64,000 bases of DNA, from contig JAIPJL010000002.1 in NCBI GenBank assembly GCA_021734165.1, forward strand, positions 1-64,000. The letters run 5' to 3'. This stretch comes from a bacterium (GTDB lineage Bacteria > Electryoneota > AABM5-125-24 > Hatepunaeales > Hatepunaeaceae). The notes beneath the pieces are model-generated. The model did not search any database and was not told the origin of the DNA. It saw only the letters and a list, made by a program, of their open reading frames with translations. A program made the position numbers and the translations under genes. Positions 2,623 to 53,577 of the stretch are shown piece by piece (positions within the stretch are counted from its first letter, which is position 1; every line of letters starts with the position of its first letter).

Positions 2623-2988
2623 TGTTAATAGGAAAAAACACGCAACTCTGAGTATTAAACAGTATTTGATTTTAGAAACCTGCTTTTAAGACTTTGAATA
2701 GTTCATCTAATTGCCTAAATTACTATAAATGCTGTGAGAAGTAAGGATTTGTGCATAAACTGATTAAAAAATAAGTAGTTAAGCAGAATTAAATAGATAA
2801 AAACACGCAATAAATTATTGATAACCATTAAGCTAACATGATAAAAAAGAACATGATTTATGGCGTTAATTCCGAACTCAGGATGAGTCAAGGTTTCGAT
2901 GTTGCGATATAACTCTTTCATGTAATCAGAAACTGAATAGAATGTTTCAAAGTAAGTACGTAACACTTAAAAATCCTGAGGCAGTAGT
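2623..2988. other. AT-rich intergenic stretch without a convincing gene
   Basis: Very AT-rich DNA between the tRNA-Leu promoter and the WD40 gene. It holds an 83-codon minus-strand ORF (2715-2966) of low-complexity hydrophobic composition with no SD, and a 27-codon plus-strand ORF from ATG 2942 that ends at 3024. I see no support for either as a gene. The 3' edge contains GAGG, 7 nt before the ATC proposed as the WD40 gene start. Confidence 0.5.
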
Positions 2989-5900
2989 ATCAGAAAAAGA
3001 TTCAGTAGAACTTACCTTTGGTTAGGCTTTAAAAATAAACCTTTTGCAGTACTTGTTATTACATTAGCACTGCTGTTGCCTTTCAATTTTCTTCAATCCG
3101 AAGTATTACCACTCGAAACGGTTATTCAGACTGGTCATTCGGGAGCGGTTCTCTCTGTCGATTTCAGTCCTGATGGTCAATATCTAATCAGTTGTGGAAC
3201 AGATAATAGTATAAAACTCTGGATCGTCGAAACCGGTCGAGAGTTGAGAACTTTTATTGGCCATTCACAGGATGTTCAATGTGTGCGTTTCAGTTCTGAT
3301 GGGAAATATATTATCAGTGGGAGTAAAGACAGAACAGCAAAATTATGGGATGTTTTAACAGGTGAAACGATAAGGACTTATGAAAAACACAGTGATGAGA
3401 TAAATGCAGTAGCATTCAGTAATGACGACGGATTCATTGGAACAGCGAGCAACGATAAAACAGCAATCTTGTGGGATACGGAAACAGGTAAGATCGTTCA
3501 TTTCTTTGAAGGTCACAAACAACCGGTAAGTTCCATAGCATTCAGTCCTGATAATCGGTATTTACTTACAGGCAGTTTTGACTATACAGCAAAGCTATGG
3601 AGTTTAGAGAATGGTAAGAATGTCCGCACTTATAAAGGAACATTCAGCAGCTTTGCAGGTGGTTTGTTCAAGGGCATATTTAGAAATATGCTTGATGGAC
3701 ACAGTGATTATGTAACCTCAGTTGATTTTAGTCCTAATGGGGAATTTGTTGCTACAGGAAGTCATGATCAAACAGTTAGGTTATGGCGAACCACAACTGG
3801 GGAAGAAATACGTGATTTTAAGGCTCGTTCAAAAAGCGGTTCATTAAAAGGCGTTACATCTATATGTTTTAATAGGGATAATGATCATATTGTCACCGGT
3901 AATCTCGATGGAACTGTAAGGATCTGGAAAACGAGCAAAAGGCGAGAGGTTCAAAGGTTTGAAGGACATACCGATTTTGTCAATTCAGTGGTCTATAGCC
4001 CTGACGGAAGATATATTGCATCCTGTGGTGGATCGGCGATACGAATGAATGACAAAACGATCAGGATTTGGAATGTTGAAGAAGGCAAGGAAATCAGAGT
4101 CCTGAGCGTTGAAGCAAGAAGCGGAATATCAGTGTGTTTTTGTCCTGACAATGATAGGATTATCACTTCTTATGGTGATGGTTCATCAAGAAGGTGGAAT
4201 TTAAGAAATGGCGGCAAAACTGAAAGTAATGAAAACGGCAGTCCGGTAATTCGATCTGATTTTGAACCTTTAAATAAATGTGTTGTAACACAATCTCTTG
4301 GAGATACAACCAGAATCTGGGATGCTGCTAATAACGAAGTGATTGATATTTTTAACGAAGAATCACATCGCGTGATTACCGCAGGACGCAGCTCAGACGG
4401 GAGATTCCTGGTTACAGGAAGTCTGGATCACACTGCGAAATTGTGGAATTGCGAAACAGGTGAAGACATCAGAACATTCTATGGTCATTTGGGAGGAGTT
4501 TTTTCGGCTGATTTCAGCCCTGATGACAGGTTTATTGTGACTGGGAGCCTTGATAATACTGCCAGATTATGGGAAGTACGGACAGGTCGTGAAATTCTGA
4601 AAATGGGAGGTCATCAATACTCGGTTGCTTCAGTTGATTATAGTCAAGATGGAAATCAGATTGTGACCGGCAGCATTGATGGACTCACAACTTTATGGGA
4701 TGTGAAATCTAACAGTAATATAGCCAAACTCATCCCAATCGACAGAAAAGACTGGATTGTTGTAACTCCTGATGGTTTCTTTGACAAATCAGACGGAATA
4801 AAGCAGAGTGTTTATTTCGTTCAGGGTATGCAGATCTGGGAATTACAGCAATTCCATAGAGATTTTTATCACCCAAATTTATTGGAGTTAATTATTAGCT
4901 CCCAGAGCGGTTTGTTACCAGACATGAGTGTTTCTGAAATGATAGAAAAATCACCTCCACCATCTGTCGAAATAATTTCACCGAAAGTCGGTGAACGACT
5001 TCTGCGTAAAACTATCGAGGTAGAGGTTGAGGCGAAAAACGAAGGTGGCGGCATTCGTGAATTTAAGTTTTTACACAATGGAAAAAGGATAGCTTTTAAT
5101 TCAGTAAGTTCGAAAAAGAAGACAGAAAGTGGTGATAGTTCAATGATCGCAACATTTACGGTTCCACTCGTATCCGGTAATAATGAATTGGCTACAACTG
5201 CATTCAGTGATGCGAAAATTGAATCATTACCTGCTAAATTGGATATTCTTTTGAAAGAGGGTGGTAGAGAAGAGATCATTATGTATGTTATTGCTGTCGG
5301 CATTGATGAATATACGGATAATAGATTCAATCTTCAGGGAGCAATTAACGGCGCTATTGATTTTGCGAATACTTTTAAGACTTTGAATAATGATATTTAT
5401 AATAAGGTTGAGGTGATAACTCTCACTGATTTTGAAGCCACGCGTGAAAATGTGTTGACAGTTCTTGATGAAATTGGTCAAGTAGCTGAACCTGAAGAAT
5501 TGATTGTATTTTATTTTGCCGGTAGAAGCATCGTTTTAGACGGTGAGTATTATTTACTCACTGTTAATAATTACAATTTCCACAATCGAGAATTACTGAA
5601 CAGCGATGCGATAAAAGTTGGTGAATTCCAGAATCGCCTTATGAATATCTGGGCGCTGGAACAGTTGATTGTAATTGACGCGCCACTCGTAGATGATGCA
5701 AGACTGGCATTTAATCTAAGAAGCGCAATTGCTGAAAAGGCTTTAAGTGATCTGGCTACCGGAAGTGGCGTCAACCTGTTTGCTTCTTCAGGGATTAACT
5801 ATACTAAAGAGGAAATTAAACTCTACGGAAAAGGGCTTTTTACCCAGGTATTCATAGAAGGTTTGCAGGGCAAAGCGGAGACAGATTCCAGCGATGGGAA

Positions 5901-6030
5901 TATTTGTATTTCCGAACTAAAAGACTATATTTCAAATGAGTTACCATTACAATCTAAAGAAGTCAGAAAACAGGTTTACTATCCTGATGTGATTACGACC
6001 GGTGTGGATTTTCCTTTGATAAGGAAGTAG
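2989..6030 (+). CDS. Exported WD40 beta-propeller protein with a catalytically dead caspase-like (peptidase C14) domain
   Basis: Order of parts: Sec-type signal (charged start RKR..., then 'PFAVLVITLALLLPF'), about 12 WD40 repeats ('FSPDG...TGS.D.TA.LW'), a linker 'DWIVVTPDGFFDKSDG', an Ig-like module, and a C-terminal caspase/metacaspase fold from about residue 735 of the track numbering. Caspase hallmarks are degraded: the catalytic His segment (family YFAGHG) reads 'YFAGRS', and the catalytic Cys segment (family DACHSG) reads 'DAPLVD'. It is therefore probably a non-proteolytic scaffold. The track starts at TTG 3076, but that cuts the signal peptide. The frame is open back to a TGA at 2977 with no ATG/GTG/TTG. 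ATC at 2989 with GAGG 7 nt upstream is my preferred start. Convergent with the ABC-F gene, 11 nt apart. Confidence 0.85.
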   Translation: MRKRFSRTYLWLGFKNKPFAVLVITLALLLPFNFLQSEVLPLETVIQTGHSGAVLSVDFSPDGQYLISCGTDNSIKLWIVETGRELRTFIGHSQDVQCVRFSSDGKYIISGSKDRTAKLWDVLTGETIRTYEKHSDEINAVAFSNDDGFIGTASNDKTAILWDTETGKIVHFFEGHKQPVSSIAFSPDNRYLLTGSFDYTAKLWSLENGKNVRTYKGTFSSFAGGLFKGIFRNMLDGHSDYVTSVDFSPNGEFVATGSHDQTVRLWRTTTGEEIRDFKARSKSGSLKGVTSICFNRDNDHIVTGNLDGTVRIWKTSKRREVQRFEGHTDFVNSVVYSPDGRYIASCGGSAIRMNDKTIRIWNVEEGKEIRVLSVEARSGISVCFCPDNDRIITSYGDGSSRRWNLRNGGKTESNENGSPVIRSDFEPLNKCVVTQSLGDTTRIWDAANNEVIDIFNEESHRVITAGRSSDGRFLVTGSLDHTAKLWNCETGEDIRTFYGHLGGVFSADFSPDDRFIVTGSLDNTARLWEVRTGREILKMGGHQYSVASVDYSQDGNQIVTGSIDGLTTLWDVKSNSNIAKLIPIDRKDWIVVTPDGFFDKSDGIKQSVYFVQGMQIWELQQFHRDFYHPNLLELIISSQSGLLPDMSVSEMIEKSPPPSVEIISPKVGERLLRKTIEVEVEAKNEGGGIREFKFLHNGKRIAFNSVSSKKKTESGDSSMIATFTVPLVSGNNELATTAFSDAKIESLPAKLDILLKEGGREEIIMYVIAVGIDEYTDNRFNLQGAINGAIDFANTFKTLNNDIYNKVEVITLTDFEATRENVLTVLDEIGQVAEPEELIVFYFAGRSIVLDGEYYLLTVNNYNFHNRELLNSDAIKVGEFQNRLMNIWALEQLIVIDAPLVDDARLAFNLRSAIAEKALSDLATGSGVNLFASSGINYTKEEIKLYGKGLFTQVFIEGLQGKAETDSSDGNICISELKDYISNELPLQSKEVRKQVYYPDVITTGVDFPLIRK

Positions 6031-48973: not shown

Positions 48974-49620
48974 GATGATTCTCCTTAAGGTGAAATTTTA
49001 TCCTTTTCCCATCACTCCTGCAACGAAAGTGATTCCTAAAAACAGCACGAATATAAACAACAATATAGTAGTAATTTAGGCGCTTATTGACAGGTACTTG
49101 AAGCCTTTTCTCGATTCTGCAAGAAAGTATCCGACTTTCAATGAAAAACTGTAAATAGAACCATGAAAATACTACAGGTTTTCAAGATAACTAACAACTT
49201 TGCAACTGTCAACTGTTTAACCTCTGCAGATAGTTTTTATCTTAAGAGTGCATAAAAAACATGATAATTATGTGGAATTTTGTTACATTTATCAAAGTAA
49301 AACTTATATAAGATGAGTGACGTCCGTATTTAAGTGATAATATAATTATAATCAACTACCGATTAACTATTTGGAGTTTAGTAAGGTTAATTTTTTATTT
49401 TGAAAGATTCAAAATTTGTTCTTCTTTTTTACAATCAAAATTGCATACAGGGTTTTTTCAATACTATATTATACCATTGATGCATTATGCTGAAATGCAG
49501 CATGAATTACTTATAATAAAAAAGGCTTTTCTTAAGGTTGAACTTAATAGCATCCGGAACAGGGAAATTCCATTAAAGGAATTAGCTTCAAAATTTATAG
49601 TAAATTAACGGATAAGCAAG
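48974..49620. other. AT-rich intergenic region upstream of cheD
   Basis: About 650 bp with no ORF over 60 codons that looks real. Holds a possible promoter (TTGCAT at 49441, 18-nt spacer, TATATT at 49465) and a 42-codon ORF at 49480-49608 ('MHYAEMQHELLIIKKAFLKV...') ending 12 nt before the proposed cheD start; it could be a leader ORF or chance. Confidence 0.4.
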
Positions 49621-50109
49621 ATAGATACAACAATCTACATAGGCATAGGTGATTGTAAAGTAAGTAAATCACCAAATGAAGTCTTGAAGACCATGGCATT
49701 AGGATCATGTGTTGCAGTGATTATGCTCGATCCTAAGAATCAATCTGTAGGATTGCTTCATGCGGTACTACCTGATTCATCTATAAACAGAAGAATAATT
49801 CTGGAAAAACCAGGTATGTTTATAGATACAGGAATTCCAATTTTAATTAACAAAATGATGGCTCTTGGATATGATGGAAAATCTCACATGGTAATTAAGA
49901 TAGCCGGAGCTGCATCTGTTGCGGATCCGAACCAGACGTTCAATATTGGAAACAAAAATGTAATTGCAGCAAAGAAAACGCTTTCAGCCCATAGAATGAT
50001 CATCACTGCTGAGGATGTTGGTGGAACAATCAACCGTACCGTGACAATTGGTTTAGATAATGATAAGGTTGTTGTTTCATCCCCAGGACGCGAACCATGG
50101 AATCTGTGA
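49621..50109 (+). CDS. cheD: CheD chemoreceptor glutamine deamidase
   Basis: 162 aa if started at ATA 49621. Motifs 'IYIGIGDCKV', catalytic-Cys 'LGSCVAVIM', His in 'GLLHAVLPDS' and 'KIAGAASV', with 'NIGNKNVIAAKKTL', are complete for CheD, which deamidates receptors and binds CheC. The track starts at TTG 49684, which removes the conserved first strand 'IYIGIGDCKVSKSPNEV'. The frame stays open upstream to TAA 49606 with no ATG/GTG/TTG, so an AUA start is likely. Followed by an HDOD gene. No other chemotaxis genes in the window. Confidence 0.88.
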   Translation: MDTTIYIGIGDCKVSKSPNEVLKTMALGSCVAVIMLDPKNQSVGLLHAVLPDSSINRRIILEKPGMFIDTGIPILINKMMALGYDGKSHMVIKIAGAASVADPNQTFNIGNKNVIAAKKTLSAHRMIITAEDVGGTINRTVTIGLDNDKVVVSSPGREPWNL

Positions 50110-50243
50110 ACAAAGATAAAATAGATATGGCAATCAGCGCTGACGTTCTATGCATACAGAAAGTGATTTCAGCAGCTTGTATTTCATTTACTGACAATAT
50201 TAATCAATTTAATATGGAATATAAATGGAAAAATCTCAAATAA
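50097..50243 (+). CDS. Possible 48-aa protein overlapping cheD and the HDOD gene
   Basis: ATG 50097 lies inside the cheD end (13-nt overlap) and the stop lies inside the HDOD start (19-nt overlap), filling the gap exactly. Sequence 'MESVNKDKIDMAISADVLCI...' is not low-complexity. Could be a coupling ORF. No homologue recognised. Confidence 0.35.
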   Translation: MESVNKDKIDMAISADVLCIQKVISAACISFTDNINQFNMEYKWKNLK

Positions 50244-51100
50244 AAGATACTATTATAGCACGAGTTGAAGACTTCGGAGTTCCTCCCGATATAATTCTGC
50301 GTCTTATTGCGGTGATTCAGGATAAAACGCATACAATTCATAATGTTGTAGATATTATTCAAAGCGATCCATCATTAACAGCGCGAATACTCCGTGTTGC
50401 AAATTCCGCTGCATTTTGTAGAAAAACCCCTATAAACACGTTATCCCGTGCAGTTATTCAGATGGGTGAGAGGATCGTCACCGGAATCGCATTAGATTTT
50501 TGTATGAAACAGGTTTATGAAAAAAATTTAACAGGATATAATTGCTCAAGTGAGGATTTCTGGGCGCACTCTTTGATGACAGCTATCGCTGCCAGGGAAA
50601 TCAGCAGACATACAAATAATAATATTTCTCCTGACATTGCTTATACTGCCGGAATACTGCATGATATTGGAAAAGCAATAATTTCAGAGTTTATTGTCGA
50701 TAATAATACTTTGATGCAGGATTGGCTTGATAAAGGCGAAGTTGGTGATTTCCTGGCAGCAGAAAAACAACTTGTTGATACTGATCATGCGGAAGTTGGT
50801 TGGATGATGGCAAGTAAATGGAAATTTCCTGAAGAGCTTCTTAATGCAATACGTTATCATCACAATCCAAACAATGTTGAAGAAAAATTCAGAGATATAG
50901 TTTTCTGTATTCATCTCGCTGATATTACTGCTATGATTGCCGGTAAAGGAACAGGAATTGATTCATTTATTTACGATCTTGATAGCAATTATGTTAATTA
51001 TATAGATCTGGGCGAGAATGAGTTATCATTTATACTTCTTAAGATCCAGGAGGAGTTTGTTCAAATAATTGAGTCAATCAGGGTAGTTAAGGAAACCTAA
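50225..51100 (+). CDS. HDOD domain signalling protein
   Basis: 291 aa. HDOD domain spanning most of the protein: 'LPPxx'-like start ('FGVPPDIILRLIAVIQD'), 'IIQSDPSLTARILRVANSAAF', 'ILHDIGKAIISEF' (HD pair retained) and 'IRYHHNP'. HDOD proteins relay signals in motility and nucleotide second-messenger systems. Next to cheD, so a role in chemotaxis or cell-surface signalling is likely. Confidence 0.85.
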   Translation: MEKSQIKDTIIARVEDFGVPPDIILRLIAVIQDKTHTIHNVVDIIQSDPSLTARILRVANSAAFCRKTPINTLSRAVIQMGERIVTGIALDFCMKQVYEKNLTGYNCSSEDFWAHSLMTAIAAREISRHTNNNISPDIAYTAGILHDIGKAIISEFIVDNNTLMQDWLDKGEVGDFLAAEKQLVDTDHAEVGWMMASKWKFPEELLNAIRYHHNPNNVEEKFRDIVFCIHLADITAMIAGKGTGIDSFIYDLDSNYVNYIDLGENELSFILLKIQEEFVQIIESIRVVKET

Positions 51101-51183: not shown

Positions 51184-53577
51184 CTAAAAATCCAATCTTA
51201 CACCACCTACAAAGAAAAACCTCCACTGATATACTGTATCTACCACATCATCATCAGCATAGATATATTCAGCGACATTTTTCCGATCAAGCAGGTTTTG
51301 AATCTCAAGAAAGACAACAGTTGAGCGATAACCGAAAAACCACTTGCTGTCCCAGCGAATATCCCAGCGGATATAATCCGGATAACGTTTACTGTTTGGA
51401 TCAGCAATGTCTTCCCAGTGCGGATCCGCTTCCATTCCTATTGTTGTCCATTCTTTGGGCGTATAAGGTCTTCCTGAGACATATCGCAGCCTGGTTGAGA
51501 TTGTCAATTCATCACCATTGATCGGCATTACATAAGTCCACCGCCAATACCACTTTTTCTGGAAATCACGCATCCGAAGCCCGTTGAACTTATAACCAAG
51601 CGCTAAGGTGCTGATGTGGCGATAATCGTAGTCGGAAGGATAGGATTCTATCGAATCATCGAACTTTGAATTGCCATAAGAATAGCTGAACGTTCCATAC
51701 CAATTAGTGGTAAATTTACGCTGGGCAAACAGTTCCATTCCCCAGGACTCCTTTGTTCCAACAGCGAGGTAGCGCCATGATCTTAGTACCGGATTATAGT
51801 AATGCAGCAGTTTCTGCTCCGAAACCGGAAGCTTTTCGTAGTTTTTATAGTATCCTTCTACGCTGAGGATAGTTGCATCGGTTAGGAGGTATGACAAGCC
51901 GAGCACATATTGATACGCTTTGCTGTGAGGCAGGTTTTTATTGGCGCCGTTCGGATCGGACGTGTAAATCAAGAGTGGCTGAGCTTGATAATAAATTCCC
52001 CAAGCGGATTTCATTGTTAAACGAGGCTTTATCTCCCAACTTGCAGACAGTCTTGGAGCTAATGTTACTTCATTCGAATACTGAAAACCGTCCAGTCGCA
52101 AACCGCCTATTAACGTGAGATTGCTCAACGGACGCCATCGATATTGTGCGAAACTGCCGTACTTTAACGTAGTTGTCGATTCGTTAATTACCATTTCAGG
52201 TCTGATCACAACCGTATCAACACCATTAATGTTATAATTTGTTGTGTCATCCTCAAGCCAGAACTCATGCGAAAATGAAATGGGTTTGAGACTTAAACCA
52301 AATGAAAGCTCATCGGTATCTCTAAGTTTTTGTGTTCTGTTCAGATGGATTTGATTGGTAGTTTCTGTGCTTATAGCTTTATAAAACTGGCGTTTGATCA
52401 AGTTGTTCGAAGCGTCTTTATTAACTTCAAACACGTCATATTTATAATTAATTTCAGTCATTGCAAGCGTCATATCCGAATATCCGTTTCCCCATATCTT
52501 TCGCCATGTTCCACCAAGAGCGGAAGTGGATCCGCTTGCTTTAAATGCTTCCGCTCCCCGTGACCAGGCATCCGCATCTTCCTGCTCAACTTCGATTAGA
52601 TCGTCACCATAAAGACCGATAATTGATAGTTTATCATAAGGTGACAGGTCATAAGCAACCTTTAACTGCGTATCCCAATATTTTGGTGTGGCAGTTAAAC
52701 CGATAGCGCCTTTAACAAATTCGAGATAACTTTTACGGTATGCGACAAGGTAGGAGCCTCTTTTCGCTGCAAAACCTCCCTCGCAATTAACGCCGATACC
52801 TGCCATGGAGAAAGTTAGTTGTCCGGAGAAGCGATCACGATTACCCTCACGCAGATCAAGATCAAGTACGCTGGAGAGCCTGTCACCATACCTTGCAGAG
52901 AAGCCACCGCTGGCAAACGTAACCTCTTTTAGAAATTCGGGATTAACAAGTCCAATAGGTCCTCCGGAACTTGCCTGCTCAGGGAAGTGATTGATATTGT
53001 CTATCTCGACGCCATCCATAATTAGAAGGTTTTCGGAAGGACTGCCGCCTCTGACGATTATTTCATTGGTTTGATCGTTGCTTGAGGCTATACTTGGCAG
53101 CGCTTGAATGGCGCGCTGAACATCCTCTGCCGATCCCGGTGAGCGACGCACTTCTTCATAACTCAAAGACCGGGATGATGTTACCAAATCCGGTTTCTGC
53201 CTGAAGAATCCAGCCACAACAACCGCTTCTTCACCCTCAATCACTGTTGGTTCAAGAAGGAATTCCAATTCAGCAGGACGACCCGGTTTCAGCAGCACTT
53301 CACTCTTAATATCTGGTAGATAACCGAGTGCGCTGGCTTTAAGGTTATACACAGCCGGTTTAAGTCCGTGGATAATGAATTTTCCCTCAATATCAGCCGC
53401 AGCGCCGAATTCAGTGTTAAGCACGACCACATTGGCATTTGCTACTGGGCTGCGAGTAGATTGATCAAGCACAACTCCTTTGACTGTGCAGGTTTTGATT
53501 TCGGCAAAGGAGCATGTACAGTAGGTTATTGCAAGGAAGAGTATCAGGTTGTGTTTGAAATATAGTTTACTATTTAT
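51184..53577 (-). CDS. TonB-dependent outer-membrane receptor with carboxypeptidase-like regulatory domain
   Basis: 797 aa if started at ATA 53577. Signal peptide 'LILFLAITYCTCSFA', CarboxypepD_reg-like domain ('GVVLDQSTRSPVANANVVV'), plug with 'DVQRAIQALPSIASSNDQTNEIIVRGGSPSENLLIMDGVEID', then a 22-strand-type barrel ending 'WRFFFVGGVRLDF'. Imports a siderophore, vitamin or glycan with TonB energy; substrate unknown. The track start GTG 53472 removes the signal peptide, without which the protein could not reach the outer membrane. AAGGGAG lies 4 nt before ATA 53577, and no ATG/GTG/TTG occurs in that frame back to the TAA. Confidence 0.88.
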   Translation of the reverse strand: MNSKLYFKHNLILFLAITYCTCSFAEIKTCTVKGVVLDQSTRSPVANANVVVLNTEFGAAADIEGKFIIHGLKPAVYNLKASALGYLPDIKSEVLLKPGRPAELEFLLEPTVIEGEEAVVVAGFFRQKPDLVTSSRSLSYEEVRRSPGSAEDVQRAIQALPSIASSNDQTNEIIVRGGSPSENLLIMDGVEIDNINHFPEQASSGGPIGLVNPEFLKEVTFASGGFSARYGDRLSSVLDLDLREGNRDRFSGQLTFSMAGIGVNCEGGFAAKRGSYLVAYRKSYLEFVKGAIGLTATPKYWDTQLKVAYDLSPYDKLSIIGLYGDDLIEVEQEDADAWSRGAEAFKASGSTSALGGTWRKIWGNGYSDMTLAMTEINYKYDVFEVNKDASNNLIKRQFYKAISTETTNQIHLNRTQKLRDTDELSFGLSLKPISFSHEFWLEDDTTNYNINGVDTVVIRPEMVINESTTTLKYGSFAQYRWRPLSNLTLIGGLRLDGFQYSNEVTLAPRLSASWEIKPRLTMKSAWGIYYQAQPLLIYTSDPNGANKNLPHSKAYQYVLGLSYLLTDATILSVEGYYKNYEKLPVSEQKLLHYYNPVLRSWRYLAVGTKESWGMELFAQRKFTTNWYGTFSYSYGNSKFDDSIESYPSDYDYRHISTLALGYKFNGLRMRDFQKKWYWRWTYVMPINGDELTISTRLRYVSGRPYTPKEWTTIGMEADPHWEDIADPNSKRYPDYIRWDIRWDSKWFFGYRSTVVFLEIQNLLDRKNVAEYIYADDDVVDTVYQWRFFFVGGVRLDF

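Follow-up and report, generated by a model that had tools for sequence, protein, structure and literature searches.

The cheD gene of the window, that is, of the whole 64,000-nucleotide stretch analysed here, is probably initiated at an AUA codon at position 49621. The window comprises positions 1-64,000 of contig JAIPJL010000002.1 from a single MAG (assembly GCA_021734165.1, genome 86% complete). Starts at AUA, AUU or AUC (AUH) are an established kind; what makes this case interesting is that they recur in cheD and that the gene is an orphan. The features are collected in Table 1.

Table 1. Features of the window and candidate AUH starts in the window genome (G000) and in G005
Feature	Location	Strand	Remarks
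Sigma-70-like promoter CTGAAA-16-TATAAT	49490..49517	+	Upstream of cheD; consensus match only; 10 found vs 5.7 expected, weak
TAA closing the cheD frame on the upstream side	49606..49608	+	In frame
GGA, weak Shine-Dalgarno-like core	49610..49612	+	8 nt 5' of ATA 49621; -3.3 kcal/mol
ATA, most likely initiation codon of cheD	49621..49623	+	Met1 column of 13 homologues; Met1 of 2F9Z; ATG of L011
cheD CDS, counted from ATA	49621..50109	+	162 codons plus TGA; Pfam, NCBIfam, alignment
TTG, first canonical start codon of cheD	49684..49686	+	Initiation here would delete the first beta strand
HDOD-domain protein gene, 3' of cheD	50225..51100	+	Pfam HDOD 3.6e-51; ordinary ATG start
TonB-dependent-receptor-like gene	51184-53577	-	Domain matches
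ATA, probable start of the TonB-dependent-receptor-like gene	53575..53577	-	Shine-Dalgarno AAGGGAG, -7.2 kcal/mol, good spacing
infC	G000		AUC/AUA start, appears to be of the AUH type
dusB	G000		Model position 1 falls on ATA; APMAG contains the first canonical codon
Heptosyltransferase-like gene	G000		Candidate AUC or CUG after GGGGAGG
lgt	G005, L136 17630-19736		AUC exactly opposite AUG of G003; Shine-Dalgarno AGGAG
rsmI	G005, L136 17630-19736		Adjoins lgt; also without canonical start
carB	G005		ATA at model position 1
Prenyl synthetase	G005		ATA opposite GTG of G000
HAD phosphatase, glyoxalase-like gene, infC	G005		Putative AUH starts

The start of cheD

The protein encoded in the window belongs to the CheD family (Pfam PF03975, E 5e-22, 78.6 bits against a curated cut-off of 25; NCBIfam NF041119, E 2.5e-33). 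It is the only CheD of the genome and is 55% identical to its closest relative. The Thr-Cys-His pattern is intact in the alignment (KTMALGSC, GLLHAVLP), and we take these residues to be the catalytic ones. The reading frame runs TAA (49606-49608) CGG ATA (49612) AGC AAG ATA (49621) GAT ACA ACA ATC TAC ATA GGC and continues ATA GGT GAT TGT AAA ... GTC TTG (49684) AAG ACC ATG (49693) GCA. As claimed in the initial annotation, it contains no ATG, GTG or TTG codons between the TAA and TTG 49684; indeed, none of these codons occurs in any frame from 49539 to 49648. Within a gene, twenty codons without a canonical start are nothing exceptional (P about 0.40), but here the gap is unusual, because it covers the conserved N-terminus at the 5' end. 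The alignment also bears out that the conserved first strand of CheD lies in frame upstream of TTG 49684 (IYIGIGDCKVSKSPNEVLKTMALGSC against IYVGIGEFAVSRNPNHVLKTMALGSC).

Several comparisons place the N-terminus at or next to ATA 49621. In an alignment of 14 sequences, Met1 of all 13 homologues falls in the column of this codon. At the codon level, the ATG of the phylum relative L011 is exactly opposite ATA 49621, and Met1 of most other homologues is opposite the next codon, GAT 49624. The alignment with CheD orthologues proposed in the initial annotation thus places the start on the ATA or one codon further. Among the 80 CheD loci taken from named genomes, 49 have ATG at residue 6, the codon after ATA 49621. 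Chain residue 6 of the Thermotoga maritima CheD (2F9Z) corresponds to query residue 10, so that its Met1 corresponds to query residue 5, that is, to ATA 49621; the NCBIfam models place the start of CheD at query residues 5-7. The cheD gene of G003, a genome of the same family, starts with ATG. If ATA 49621 is used, the predicted N-terminus is fMet/Met-DTTIYIGIGDCK. On the other hand, ATA accounts for 2.2% and AUH for 7.8% of codons, frequencies at which chance could plausibly place an AUH close to the expected start.

The predicted Shine-Dalgarno duplex at ATA 49621 has an energy of -3.3 kcal/mol. This is the best value among the in-frame options (+0.6 for ATA 49612, -0.8 for TTG 49684, -0.9 kcal/mol for ATG 49693), yet it is close to the background, as the median is -3.1 kcal/mol for random positions and -4.1 kcal/mol for the ATG starts of the genome. 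The strong or extended Shine-Dalgarno box typical of AUH-started genes was not observed at this codon. The initial proposal that AUA is the likely initiator is backed by the placement on or near the homologous Met1, by the best in-frame pairing and by the AUH precedents described below, whereas the strength of this pairing, which does not exceed the background, counts against it. Overall, we consider initiation at AUA 49621 probable.

The region upstream contains a 42-codon ORF in the frame of cheD, ending at TAA 49606, with the stop 12 nt before ATA 49621. Its peptide matched neither CheB nor any Pfam family. A segment resembling the C-terminus of CheB ('NREIPLKELASKFIVN') was considered as a remnant of cheB and rejected: the real region reached 1.6 bits against a profile of 70 CheB ends, a score equalled or exceeded by 95 of 200 shuffled regions. 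No match to Rfam was found in the cheD region, the fold of 49570-49690 showed no clear RNA structure (z -1.7), and a single-sequence scan of the sequence collection produced no match.

An orphan cheD next to an HDOD gene

In relatives, cheD belongs to an operon cheA-cheW-(MCP)-cheR-cheB-cheD-HDOD-response regulator-CheX/CheY, where profiles were used only for CheD, HDOD, CheB, CheR, CheW and MCP, and the names were otherwise assigned from position, similarity and recognisable sequence. The cheD-HDOD neighbourhood is kept in these relatives, and in the window and in G003 the cheD-HDOD pair alone is left of the operon. Searches of the 86% complete assembly found no MCP signalling domain (PF00015), CheW domain, CheB methylesterase or CheR; since there is no CheW domain, a typical CheA is not expected either. 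The same partners are absent from G003 (91% complete). Absence of four separate families by chance alone is unlikely in an assembly of 86% completeness, and the chemotaxis adaptation system is apparently missing altogether from the window genome. Thus it is doubtful that CheD performs its usual function on MCPs in this organism, although its membership in the sequence family stands. The CheD tree puts the window organism near KSB1 and similar FCB lineages.

Other loci contain variants of this arrangement. In the phylum relative G016, a CheD domain and, after it, an HDOD-like region are joined in one protein (L026). G003 has a second frame with CheD, a long one (C246, 6387-6776). The fusion and this frame suggest that CheD and HDOD act together, and, given the fusion in L026, the pair is likely to have an independent role. 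In the G003 cheD (L007), the catalytic Thr is replaced by Ala and His by Asn, with the frame still open; judging by these replacements, the orphan CheD of G003 is a probable pseudoenzyme. The cheB-less cheD-HDOD locus L207 of Zixiibacteriota has a TTG start and a CheD branch of 0.92, and rapid evolution of CheD may more widely accompany loss of the chemotaxis operon. A literature search on CheD together with HDOD found no paper in the collection searched. The enzymatic activity of CheD in Bacillus subtilis was reported not to decide its role (PMC3513319), which makes a non-receptor role of orphan CheD conceivable.

AUU-started cheD genes in other genomes

The start codon is canonical in 76 of the 80 named CheD loci, with L208 set aside as AUU. 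In the remaining four, all Thermodesulfobacteriota-like (L194, L204, L208, L253), the codon where the start must be is ATT. These loci form one clade (support 100/100), unrelated to the window organism, with paths of about 0.25-0.6 changes per site, and the AUU is conserved across the four genomes. The Shine-Dalgarno pairing is strong in all of them (-7.3 to -10 kcal/mol). In L204, L208 and L253, an in-frame stop is followed by 5 to 11 codons without a canonical start and then by the ATT; in L204, a canonical codon next occurs 41 codons after the ATT, past the catalytic Cys. An in-frame ATG precedes the ATT in L194, and a TTG follows it three codons later in L208, neither locus being decisive alone.

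Neither cheB nor cheR was found upstream of these four genes, and the window cheD likewise has no cheB. AUU starts were observed in 4 of 13 loci without upstream cheB/cheR and in 0 of 67 loci with them (Fisher P 0.0005), where the four loci, forming one clade, are effectively one event and the window AUA without cheB is the second. As a control, 614 genes flanking the control loci, filtered against antisense ORFs, were analysed in the same respect. Six genes were flagged, three of them cheD. The other three have no AUH at the expected position and, by inspection, appear to be fused or wrong-frame ORFs. Thus, apart from cheD, no tested gene in these flanks has an AUH replacing its start.

Candidate AUH-started genes of the family other than cheD

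We combined a survey of coding potential in 1.2 Mb of the window genome and 0.8 Mb of G005 with comparison of orthologs. The resulting candidates (Table 1) are unequally firm, and several stand on one comparison. In the window, the initial annotation had treated cheD as a second, independent case; the other is probably the TonB-dependent-receptor-like gene. Its ATA 53577-53575 does precede the first GTG, and the sequence upstream of that GTG resembles a signal peptide. The CTG just before this ATA is an alternative start, and the relative in G005 has TTG opposite the CTG. Elsewhere in the window, the hydrophobic leader of a WD40-like repeat protein (2980-6030, plus strand) begins upstream of the first canonical codon, TTG 3076, and this gene is possibly another non-canonical or mis-started one.

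The rnpA gene was considered as an AUA-started gene and rejected, as its true frame opens upstream at an ATG and shifts at a T9 run. Thus a frameshift can imitate the pattern of an AUH start. This T9 run (AAAGTTTTTTTTT) is where the frame of the RNase P protein gene changes in two genera of the family, in contig C10 of the window genome (L064, complement) and in contig C1 of G005, the protein reading NGKYLKVFF before the change and FFLPDGKPFRIGINTPRSAG after it. Either a site of slippage or frameshifting is conserved here, or both assemblies contain the same error.

Under a strict homology test, one true AUH start was found among 138 genes of the window genome, two or three among 118 genes of G005, and none among 67 genes from other stretches of the phylum. 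As these counts are small, an elevated rate of AUH starts in the family is suggested, but not established.

Alternative explanations

The main rival to initiation at AUA 49621 is very recent inactivation of cheD: with chemotaxis lost, the gene would have lost its purpose, and its start codon would already be destroyed, with no damage to the frame yet. This is a serious alternative, since MCP, CheW/CheA, CheB and CheR were not found in the assembly, and since the window CheD has the longest terminal branch in the tree (0.93; G003, 0.71; median, 0.17) and since no other proteins deviate at as many conserved columns as it and the G003 orphan do (9 of 52 and 8 of 53, respectively). These branches and deviations point to relaxed or changed constraint on both proteins, and the average Shine-Dalgarno pairing at ATA 49621 also fits a dead gene. 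However, the frame is undamaged, the catalytic Thr, Cys and His are all present, the cheD-HDOD pair is preserved, and G003, although partnerless, still has an open cheD with ATG. The tree pairs the window and G003 proteins as sisters, if only with a support of 87/59, and hence the gene apparently survived the losses of its partners. A neutral frame of the length of cheD would have about a 1% chance of acquiring no stop or frameshift after 0.1 substitutions per site, given the assumed indel rate, so that the frame was under selection until recently at least. Inactivation is therefore compatible only with a loss of the start so recent that no more than a few percent or so of neutral divergence has followed, and we consider it unlikely, while still the most plausible of the alternatives.

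The remaining readings concern the codon itself. The ATA comes from a single MAG and differs by a one-base transition from ATG, and thus could reflect an error of sequencing or assembly or a mixture of strains. Substitution errors are rare in short-read consensus sequences, which counts against this reading, as do the further AUH-started genes in the same genome and family and the AUU-started cheD of other genomes; we regard it as improbable. About as improbable is another non-canonical route, via ATA 49612 or a near-cognate codon, or by reinitiation or readthrough from the 42-codon ORF, which shares the frame of cheD and stops shortly before the ATA. ATA 49612 has no Shine-Dalgarno box, the upstream peptide is not recognisable as CheB or as a member of any Pfam family, and a transcript from the weak promoter-like TATAAT (49512-49517) would begin after the start codon of the upstream ORF. 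Least probable in our estimate, by a small margin, is initiation at TTG 49684 or ATG 49693 with the first strand absent. Both codons are canonical, and a protein starting at 49684 would retain all of the catalytic Thr, Cys and His, but the Shine-Dalgarno pairing is poor at both and the conservation of IYIGIGD...VLK would be left unexplained, as homologues including the solved 2F9Z keep this strand.

Discussion

The simplest history consistent with initiation at AUA 49621 is that the ancestral cheD began with AUG and a G-to-A substitution at 49623 produced AUA. The codon would be read as fMet by the ordinary initiator tRNA with a mismatch in the third position. As initiation factor 3 (IF3) rejects AUH codons, acceptance would be poor and the level of CheD presumably low. 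The gene may have left the cheB-coupled chemotaxis operon, its product now working with the HDOD protein, and such an exit could explain why a weak start has been tolerated or selected.

Such starts have precedents. The infC gene starts with ATT in Escherichia coli and with ATC in Streptomyces and is subject to autoregulation by IF3 (PMC5472188). A weak AUH start discriminated against by IF3 is what we propose for the window cheD, but in infC it serves autoregulation, whereas CheD has no known role in initiation. In Staphylococcus aureus, ribosome profiling identified AUA starts of infC, ccpN and citZ and an AUU start of cvfC1; an extended Shine-Dalgarno box was described for infC, cvfC1 and ccpN, and the non-canonical sites tested with reporters yielded about 10% of AUG, ccpN reaching up to 30% in rich medium (PMC13009471). 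The AUH starts of ccpN, citZ and cvfC1, with reduced yield, resemble that of the window cheD, but they are proved by profiling and reporters, whereas the cheD start is predicted from sequence and its Shine-Dalgarno box is average. Rare starts also limit the amount of protein in E. coli pcnB (AUU, according to a title cited in PMC13009471) and Streptomyces sigR (GTC), which differ in gene and codon and were tested experimentally. As to the protein, the receptor deamidase CheD of T. maritima (2F9Z) and B. subtilis belongs to the same family and has the same catalytic residues and N-terminal strand, but the window assembly has no recognisable receptor, CheA/CheW, CheB or CheR, and its cheD has an AUA start. 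Our literature searches, in which AUH starts of cheD were not targeted directly as a pair, found nothing on them.

If the relaxed use of start codons is real, standard gene finders would mis-start or miss such genes. As most of them allow only ATG, GTG and TTG, cheD, lgt, carB and infC would be given wrong N-termini, and mis-started genes often lose a structural strand or a signal peptide. Tentatively, AUA, AUU or AUC may start about 1% of the genes of this family (FCB, near LCP-89/KSB1), and cheD freed from cheB may have acquired a weak AUH start at least twice independently, keeping a CheD-HDOD module at a low level; we hold this combined scenario to be possible rather than likely. If AUH recurs in cheD across phyla, this gene would make it possible to test whether selection favours weak starts as a limit on the amount of protein, and the family of the window organism could serve to test how stringently IF3 controls initiation. 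Finally, the CheD-HDOD pair in an apparently receptor-less genome raises the question of what CheD does outside chemotaxis.
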